From Actinomycetota bacterium (lineage in GTDB: Bacteria > Actinomycetota > Thermoleophilia > RBG-16-64-13), in NCBI GenBank assembly GCA_012523095.1, contig JAAYJE010000062.1:1-64000 (forward strand): a DNA stretch of 64,000 nucleotides, given 5' to 3'. The position numbers and the translations under genes were made by a program. Numbering within the stretch: position 1 is the stretch's first letter; each line of letters starts with the position of its first letter. Below the pieces are notes generated by a model. The model worked only from the letters and a program-made list of their open reading frames with translations, made no database searches and was not told the DNA's origin. Shown in pieces: positions 47,868-49,248 of this stretch.

Positions 47868-49084
47868 GCGAGTACGTTCGGAGGGTCTCGCGCATCCCCG
47901 ATTCACTTCTCCCGCGTCTGCCTCATCTCGGTATCGAACTCACCGAACGGTGCGACAACGACTGTATCCACTGCTGCATCAACCTGCCGGCCGGCGATCT
48001 GGCGGCGCGGGCTCGGGAGATGACCACCCAACAGGTTCTGGAGATCATGGATCAAGCCGCCGGCCTGGGATGTTTGGAGGTGCGCCTGACGGGCGGGGAG
48101 CCACTACTGCGACCCGATTTCGAGAACATCTACTTGCACGCCCGGCGACTCGGCATGAAGGTGCTCATATACACCAATGCCCGCCGGATCACCATTCGGT
48201 TGGCGGATCTCTGGAAGCGGATCCCGCCGTTGGTACCCATCGAAGTCACCGTGTACGGCATGCGTCGCGAGTCCTATGAGGCCGTGACGCGCAGCCCCGG
48301 CTCCTATGGGCAGTTCAGGCGCGGGGTCGATCTATTGCTGGACCGTCAGATCCCGTTCGTCGTGAAGAGCGTCCTGCTGCCACCCAATCGTCACGAAGTG
48401 GAGGAGTTCGAGGAGTGGGCGCGAACCCTTCCAGCTGTGGACTCAATCCCGGGTTACTCGATGTTCTTCGAGCTGCGCGGCCGTCGTGACGACGAAGCTA
48501 AGAACGAGTTGATACGTTCCTTGCGGATCGCCCCTGAGGAAGGTGTGGCGATGCTCAGCAGAAACGAGGCCCGGTATCGGAAAGAATCGGAGGAGTTCGC
48601 ATCGAGGTTCATGGGACCTCATGGGGACCGGCTGTTCGCGTGCGGGGCCGGATGCTCCGTTTGCGTCGACGCCTACGGGCGTGCGCAGCCTTGCCTCGGT
48701 CTCCGCGCCCCAGAACTGACAGCGGACGTCCTTGCCTCATCGGTGGCTGTGGCTCTAGAAGGATTCGGCGGTCTGAAGGAGATGCGGGCCACCGATCCGG
48801 ACTACCTGCGGAGATGCGCGGTATGTTCGCTTAAGGGCTTCTGCGAGCAGTGCCCAGCGAAATCGTGGGCCGAGTACGGCACTCTCGATACACCCGTTGA
48901 GTATCTTTGCGAGGTGGCTCACGCGCAGGCTCGGTATCTGGGCTGGCTGGGCTCCGGCGCAAAGGCCTGGGAAACTGAAGTTCTGACGCGTTCGGCCGAT
49001 AAAGTGAGTGAGGCGCGGTGTTCTGCCGGACTCTACGCGCTGGAAGCGACAAGATCGGTTAGACGGAGACATACCTCGAGATGA
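47864..49084 (+). CDS. Radical SAM/SPASM peptide maturase 1
   Basis: TERCDNDCIHCCINLP (CxxxCxxC), LTGGEPLLRPDF, C-terminal SPASM Cys set CGAGCSVC...CAVCSLKGFCEQCPA. Confidence 0.9.
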   Translation: MSEYVRRVSRIPDSLLPRLPHLGIELTERCDNDCIHCCINLPAGDLAARAREMTTQQVLEIMDQAAGLGCLEVRLTGGEPLLRPDFENIYLHARRLGMKVLIYTNARRITIRLADLWKRIPPLVPIEVTVYGMRRESYEAVTRSPGSYGQFRRGVDLLLDRQIPFVVKSVLLPPNRHEVEEFEEWARTLPAVDSIPGYSMFFELRGRRDDEAKNELIRSLRIAPEEGVAMLSRNEARYRKESEEFASRFMGPHGDRLFACGAGCSVCVDAYGRAQPCLGLRAPELTADVLASSVAVALEGFGGLKEMRATDPDYLRRCAVCSLKGFCEQCPAKSWAEYGTLDTPVEYLCEVAHAQARYLGWLGSGAKAWETEVLTRSADKVSEARCSAGLYALEATRSVRRRHTSR

Positions 49085-49248
49085 CCGAGAAGAGAAGATG
49101 GCATAGACCCGAGCTTGTAGTCCTGACGCGCAGCAGGCCGCAAGAGGCCGTTCTTGCCAACTGTAAGCACGCGAGTCAGGGGCCCGGCCCTGACTCGTGG
49201 AAATGCAAAGAGAAGAGCGTCAGATGCGTTGTTTTCGCTAGGAGTTGA
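49081..49248 (+). CDS. Candidate RiPP precursor peptide (55 aa)
   Basis: ATGA overlap with radical SAM 1; MTEKRRWHRPELVVLTRSRPQEAVLANCKHASQGPGPDSWKCKEKSVRCVVFARS; below the ORF-track length cutoff; leader-like WxxPELVVLTRSxPxEAVLxxCK then Cys-containing tail. Confidence 0.78.
   Translation: MTEKRRWHRPELVVLTRSRPQEAVLANCKHASQGPGPDSWKCKEKSVRCVVFARS
49172..49197. repeat. Perfect 10-bp inverted repeat inside precursor gene
   Basis: CGAGTCAGGG-GCCCGG-CCCTGACTCG. Confidence 0.9.

Follow-up and report, generated by a model that had tools for sequence, protein, structure and literature searches.

The short open reading frame (ORF) at positions 49081-49248 (forward strand) of the window, i.e. of the whole 64,000-nucleotide stretch of DNA analysed, most probably encodes the precursor of an undescribed RiPP that would be cross-linked at its Cys residues by radical SAM (rSAM) enzymes and phosphorylated on its terminal Ser; we put the probability of this reading at roughly 70%. 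At the level of sequence, the precursor family, its leader, hypervariable core and terminal Ser and the accompanying operon are all firmly recognizable, as is the association of a third core Cys with a third rSAM domain.

The precursor gene and its relatives

The ORF comprises 55 codons, and its translation is MTEKRRWHRPELVVLTRSRPQEAVLANCKHASQGPGPDSWKCKEKSVRCVVFARS, followed by a stop codon. It is placed between an rSAM/SPASM gene (rSAM1) and a PqqD gene, and its ATG shares 4 bp (ATGA) with the TGA stop codon of rSAM1, as described in the first-pass annotation of this DNA, where the ORF was proposed as a candidate precursor. Homology searches spoke clearly against a chance ORF: a profile built from 102 relatives without the window copy recovered it at E=6e-19 (second-best among all window ORFs of at least 25 aa, E=0.16), and tblastn detected homologs within the same class with E-values as low as 7.6e-8. 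Neither of the outcomes that the annotation had named as grounds for doubt was observed, i.e. homologous short ORFs are present in syntenic clusters and the reading frame is open in every one of them. The annotation had also coupled the peptide to rSAM1. The two genes do adjoin each other in the window, but in relatives the precursor gene is also found after rSAM2, before the kinase gene or far from the cluster, so that it is coupled to the operon as a whole and not to rSAM1 alone.

By its sequence, the precursor belongs to a family of small peptides that is widespread and has no name. In 61 related genomes, tblastn revealed clear homologs in five others, with up to 6 copies per genome that have a common leader and very unlike tails; weak matches in two genomes (G003 and G059) were recognized as chance frames. 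A scan of genome contigs with the alignment of the tblastn homologs gave 77 loci, and a profile then extracted 106 peptides, 103 of them distinct, from these loci and the window. The homologs come from about 15 phyla, mostly uncultured, with the reservation that, most of the genomes being metagenome bins, individual assignments (those to archaea in particular) may reflect misbinning. According to the record titles, the taxa include Thermoleophilia, Chloroflexi, Acidobacteria, Aminicenantes, Deltaproteobacteria, Anaeromyxobacter, Chlorobi, Bacillota, Omnitrophica, Planctomycetota, Saganbacteria, Edwardsbacteria, WOR-3 and some methanogen bins. Desulfobotulus alkaliphilus (L109) is an example of a cultured host. 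Despite this spread over some fifteen phyla, and although some genomes encode several different cores, neither Pfam nor NCBIfam has a model for the family.

Within the same class (299 genomes), 9 genomes carried the peptide as judged by model A2, 12 carried the rSAM gene and 8 carried both (Fisher p=3e-12). All four family-f6 genomes with rSAM have a peptide with a second type of leader adjoining rSAM2 (for example YVEPRIERVPLIPEEAVLSACKC...SCSTVGS), which model A2 missed in three genomes and matched weakly in one. The remaining rSAM genome (G014) contains a broken cluster, in which rSAM1 is shortened and the kinase and peptide genes are absent. In 396 further genomes from across the phylum, the A2 profile gave no other match at E<=0.001.

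The leader (M1-K29; 49081-49167, forward strand; WHRPELVVLTRSRPQEAVLANCK) fits the pattern WxxPELxVLVRxxPEEAVLxxCK derived from alignments A1 and A2, and residues W7, P10, E22, V24, L25, C28 and K29 are invariant in A2. The motif [W/Y]xxPx[LIVM] followed by the EAVLxxCK element occurs in 100 of the 103 distinct peptides, a count in which conservation at the positions of PEE[AS]VLxxCK is partly due to the use of this pattern for selecting the large sample. Natural drift of the leader is visible in the tblastn copies and in genome G427 (GGQEKVLLACK, SRDELVLSFCK).

Scans of the peptide against Pfam, NCBIfam and PADLOC gave no usable match, a search of PDB sequences with the profile of the peptides returned chance matches alone, no Rfam element was detected around the gene, and tblastn against plasmids revealed no precursor homolog. 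The only recurring NCBIfam echoes of the peptides are weak matches to lasso precursor models (E about 0.06). The open literature (most subscription papers lay outside the search) yielded no paper on the family, and searches of it for HprK combined with radical SAM and PqqD, or for a kinase and C-terminal serine in rSAM RiPPs, produced nothing relevant. A lipoprotein lipobox (VLxxC) was considered and rejected, since N, H, P, Y or F frequently precedes the Cys and a signal peptide is absent; a defence system was likewise dismissed, as the matches were generic viperin-like rSAM hits only.

Organization of the operon

The gene order is: divergent ABC exporter, HprK-type kinase, rSAM1, peptide, PqqD, S26 peptidase-GNAT fusion, rSAM2 and nucleotidyltransferase. 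All of these genes except that of the exporter lie on one strand and they mostly touch one another. The MsbA-like exporter (44999-46834, reverse strand; approximate start) matches an MsbA-type NCBIfam model at 1e-78, below the cut-offs, and its homologs adjoin clusters in relatives. The HprK/PEPCK-fold kinase (46965-47867, forward strand; approximate start codon) is a stand-alone protein in the window. It is followed, on the same strand, by (i) rSAM1 with SPASM-type cysteines (47864-49084; Pfam Radical_SAM, 4e-21), (ii) the precursor gene, (iii) a PqqD-type leader-binding protein (RRE) (49395-49703; Pfam PqqD, 2e-15, under every NCBIfam PqqD cut-off), (iv) an S26-type serine peptidase domain fused to a GNAT acetyltransferase (49710-50732; GNAT Pfam, 1.6e-13), (v) rSAM2, a radical SAM/SPASM protein (50738-51847; Pfam Radical_SAM, 1.6e-21), and (vi) a nucleotidyltransferase of the NTP_transf_5 type (51844-53052; PF14907, E=9.6e-39), whose DxD residues D141 and D143 are invariant in 21 homologs.

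Nearly all family members have one or two SPASM radical SAM genes nearby. Among the 26 loci flanked by 7 kb or more on each side, HprK was encoded in 24, S26 in 24, PqqD in 23 and rSAM in 23; NTP_transf_5, scored by similarity to the window copy, was found in 12, and the ABC exporter in 10. A Pfam scan of further neighbours added nine more NTP_transf_5 proteins, ten methyltransferases and eight rSAM proteins. Besides the CxxxCxxC motif, rSAM1 contains seven Cys (260, 277, 318, 321, 327, 330 and 349) that are invariant in 64 homologs, and the same set is conserved in 73 homologs of rSAM2. Homology does not fix the type of cross-link, because both maturases score far below the cut-off of every named NCBIfam equivalog.

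In the S26 domain, all 41 homologs that were aligned have Ser45 and His85, and about 96% have Asp100; the modelled fold matches catalytic subunits of the signal peptidase complex, SipA and LexA. As a Ser-His peptidase in a genome with no B2-type protease, it is likely to be the leader peptidase.

The C-terminal serine and the kinase

The predicted phosphorylation site is the last residue of the peptide, Ser55 (AGT codon, 49243-49245, forward strand). Ser or Thr occupies this position in 98 of the 103 family members (90 Ser, 8 Thr), as compared with 7.7% Ser and 6.1% Thr at the C-termini of neighbouring proteins. The usual C-terminal form is Cx5S, the last Cys being located 5-6 residues from the end in 86 of 103 peptides. 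Both the terminal Ser and this spacing fall outside the pattern by which the sample was selected, which makes them the more telling features. TCN codons specify the terminal Ser in 58 cases and AGY codons in 32, indicating selection on the protein rather than on the DNA.

Kinase residues H150, K171, D191 and D192 occur together in 40 of 43 homologs. The AlphaFold model of the window kinase has a pLDDT of 95, with PEPCK and HPr kinase as the best PDB folds. In lasso kinases of the PadeK/ThcoK type a His-Lys-Asp-Asp set is reported to be essential, and the C-terminal Ser of the precursor is phosphorylated (PMC9266682); the one-to-one match of these positions with those of the window kinase was judged from the motif. 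In the pseudomycoidin pathway, a nucleotidyltransferase places a hexose onto the phosphate after the kinase step (PMC8498205). The combination of an H-K-D-D kinase and a precursor ending in Ser, typical of the paeninodin type, is present in the window.

It is rather unlikely that the peptide is a RiPP precursor but no substrate of the kinase-like protein, the HprK-fold protein being a chaperone or regulator and the terminal Ser being conserved for some other purpose, for example C-terminal recognition by an rSAM enzyme or the exporter. Some HprK relatives are phosphatases, and the lasso kinase BsfK acts on a ring Ser and not on the last one (PMC10368454), but the H/K/D/D active-site residues are intact in all but three of the 43 homologs, the kinase is encoded in 24 of the 26 well-flanked loci, and most of the non-Ser termini are Thr, as would be predicted for a hydroxyl acceptor. 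The terminal Ser, the linked kinase, the nucleotidyltransferase and the S26 peptidase had all been missed in the first reading of the DNA. Their conservation and association suggest that the likely product is cross-linked and probably phosphorylated at its C-terminus, and not a plain rSAM peptide.

A third rSAM domain accompanies a third core cysteine

Of the 43 kinase homologs, 19 carry a further rSAM domain (with CxxxCxxC) fused in front of the kinase domain. Cores with three Cys were found in 17 of 17 scorable loci with a fused kinase, versus 2 of 28 with a stand-alone kinase (p=1.6e-10); the remaining stand-alone loci have one or two core Cys. Both exceptions lie at contig edges. The contig of L079 begins inside rSAM1, and its core is shared with L050, whose kinase is fused; L091 is near-identical to L069, and a fused kinase of the L069 type would lie past the end of the L091 contig. 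Where the kinase is encoded on another contig, its size follows the same trend: it has about 670 aa, the fused size, in L064/L163 and L095/L164 (three Cys) and 364 aa, the stand-alone size, in L068 (two Cys). The window, with two core Cys and no third rSAM, behaves as this rule predicts.

On the rSAM2 tree, from which loci with both states or with contig-edge doubts were excluded, at least 3 switches of the fused/stand-alone label fall on supported branches, and the best tree has 7, each accompanied by a change in the Cys count; three supported pairs are too few for significance by a sign test alone. A general rule equating the number of core Cys with the number of rSAM enzymes was rejected, because the second subfamily combines two core Cys with only one observed rSAM, and we retain the relationship for the third rSAM only. 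The tie between the kinase-fused third rSAM and the third Cys would provide a direct assignment of enzyme to residue in a multi-rSAM cluster.

Variability of the core

The core (H30-S55; 49168-49245, forward strand) contains C42 and C49 and ends with C-x5-S. The core Cys columns are invariant in A2, and between these fixed points the members vary freely. The homology and synteny searches back the earlier description, in which a peptide with a conserved leader and a hypervariable, Cys-rich core lies next to rSAM/SPASM and PqqD genes. In five paralogs of one genome, DNA identity amounts to 87% in the leader, 72% in the 60 bp upstream and 68% in the 90 bp downstream, versus 35% in the core (29% for shuffled cores). 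Such conserved non-coding flanks around unlike cores in the five paralogs (L044-L047) suggest a process by which cores are replaced. The L044-L047 loci, from one Thermoleophilia bin, hold six precursor paralogs on separate small contigs.

The features expected of a RiPP were found, i.e. a short encoded precursor beside dedicated modifying enzymes, and a conserved leader with a variable core. Prochlorosins and other RiPPs with hypervariable cores similarly combine a conserved leader, diversified cores and several precursors per genome, and differ from the present family in leader and enzymes. The existence of several paralogs whose cores are shuffled hints at a diversifying extracellular product, e.g. 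an antagonist or a signal. A scaffold or cofactor precursor, in the manner of PqqA or mycofactocin, shares the layout of PqqD and rSAM/SPASM genes and would not be a diversified secreted product; we regard it as improbable, since cofactor precursors keep their modified residues, whereas here the core varies except for its Cys and terminal Ser, and one genome carries six paralogs with unrelated cores.

Comparison with known systems

The closest parallels to the proposed phosphorylation are the paeninodin and pseudomycoidin systems, which share with the window a HprK-homologous kinase with His-Lys-Asp-Asp, a C-terminal Ser in the precursor and a nucleotidyltransferase (PMC9266682, PMC8498205, PMC10368454), as well as a PqqD-type B1 protein and a W/YxxPxL-like leader. 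The YxxPxL-type motif, bound by B1 in lasso systems (PMC10368454), is present in the leader described here. These similarities, and the weak matches to lasso precursor models, would fit a lasso precursor with unusual enzymes. Such an assignment is very improbable: unlike the phosphorylated lasso systems, the cluster combines rSAM/SPASM enzymes and an S26-type peptidase with a Cys-rich core, and the rSAM enzymes stand where the lasso enzymes would. No match to the B2 leader protease (Transglut_core3, PF13471) was found in the whole assembly (93% complete), and the cluster contains no asparagine synthetase-like macrolactam synthetase, the two partial PF00733 matches being on other contigs. Moreover, the alignment has neither a conserved ring Asp/Glu nor a leader Thr(-2). 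Filing the cluster as a lasso system was therefore rejected for want of B2 and a cyclase. A fortuitous reading frame, which the mere 55 codons and the lack of its own sigma-70-like promoter might suggest, has a negligible probability, being refuted by the tblastn homologs and the leave-one-out profile and contradicted by synteny and by the codon-level conservation of the terminal Ser.

The cluster in the window also resembles sactipeptide and ranthipeptide systems in that an rSAM/SPASM maturase adjoins a Cys-containing precursor, and the CxxxCxxC and auxiliary-cluster Cys typical of those enzymes are invariant in the homologs of rSAM1 (64) and rSAM2 (73). What sets it apart is an HprK kinase together with a nucleotidyltransferase, an S26 peptidase and a conserved C-terminal Ser; its maturases fit no named family of either group.

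With the SynChlorMet cassette (ScmC/ScmD/ScmE/ScmF) it shares two rSAM/SPASM proteins, a PqqD relative and an HprK-like protein, and the ScmC model weakly matched 34 of 42 kinases (best, 1.8e-13). In contrast to SynChlorMet, the enzymes of the window and of its Chlorobi and archaeal relatives score under 100 bits against an ScmE/ScmF cut-off of 400, and the window kinase reaches 17.4 bits with ScmC (cut-off, 125). ScmC over the cut-off is lacking in 16 of 17 relative genomes; one Methanomicrobiales genome carries this cluster together with a separate ScmC gene over the cut-off. As the NCBIfam cut-offs are not reached, the assignment to SynChlorMet was rejected. At locus L162 (G666:C52:2500-18000), a SynChlorMet-type ScmC gene is over its cut-off and encodes an HprK-S26 fusion. 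A short ORF beside it (6241-6459, forward strand; MPIDKDVLPEYQPPQVTKIYDLNKGSGGSIGTECNNGSNDVKS) ends in Ser and contains a leader-like YxxPxV motif, which makes it a candidate precursor for that cassette.

Proposed maturation pathway

In the pathway that we propose, PqqD would bind the WxxPxL strand of the leader, and rSAM1 and rSAM2 would introduce Cys-dependent cross-links, most likely thioethers, at Cys42 and Cys49; where present, the kinase-fused third rSAM would serve the extra Cys of a CxxC. The HprK-type kinase would phosphorylate the hydroxyl of Ser55, and the nucleotidyltransferase may place a nucleotide or sugar on the resulting phosphate. The S26-type peptidase would cut off the leader, with a probable site close to EAVLxxCK; the product may be acetylated by the fused GNAT and would be exported by the ABC transporter.

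The evidence tips, by a small measure, towards a new class of RiPPs: each of the two or three rSAM/SPASM enzymes would act on particular core Cys, and an obligatory C-terminal Ser would be phosphorylated by an HprK-type kinase (often joined to the third rSAM in a single polypeptide) and further decorated by a nucleotidyltransferase. If so, C-terminal phosphorylation would be a general RiPP module, common to lasso peptides and probably the SynChlorMet cassette, and the phosphorylation of a C-terminal Ser, described only for lasso peptides in the papers cited above, would extend to radical SAM peptides.

Genomic surroundings of the cluster

Several genes flanking the cluster in the window were identified by eye, all on the forward strand. 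Two similar neighbouring genes (42542-43192 and 43530-44186) resemble the gamma subunit of 2-oxoacid:ferredoxin oxidoreductase, and genes for BadF/HgdC-type activator ATPase-like proteins (44165-44965 and 54737-55624) are situated on the two sides of the cluster. The cluster is followed by a Wzz/tyrosine-kinase-like exopolysaccharide gene (53128-54729), and polysaccharide genes, also recognized by eye, adjoin the cluster in relatives G034 and G014 as well. The decayed cluster copy of G014, which belongs to the window's own family (L141; contig C119, 8300-10100), carries inserted genes of an apparent toxin-antitoxin system (PIN-type, by eye).
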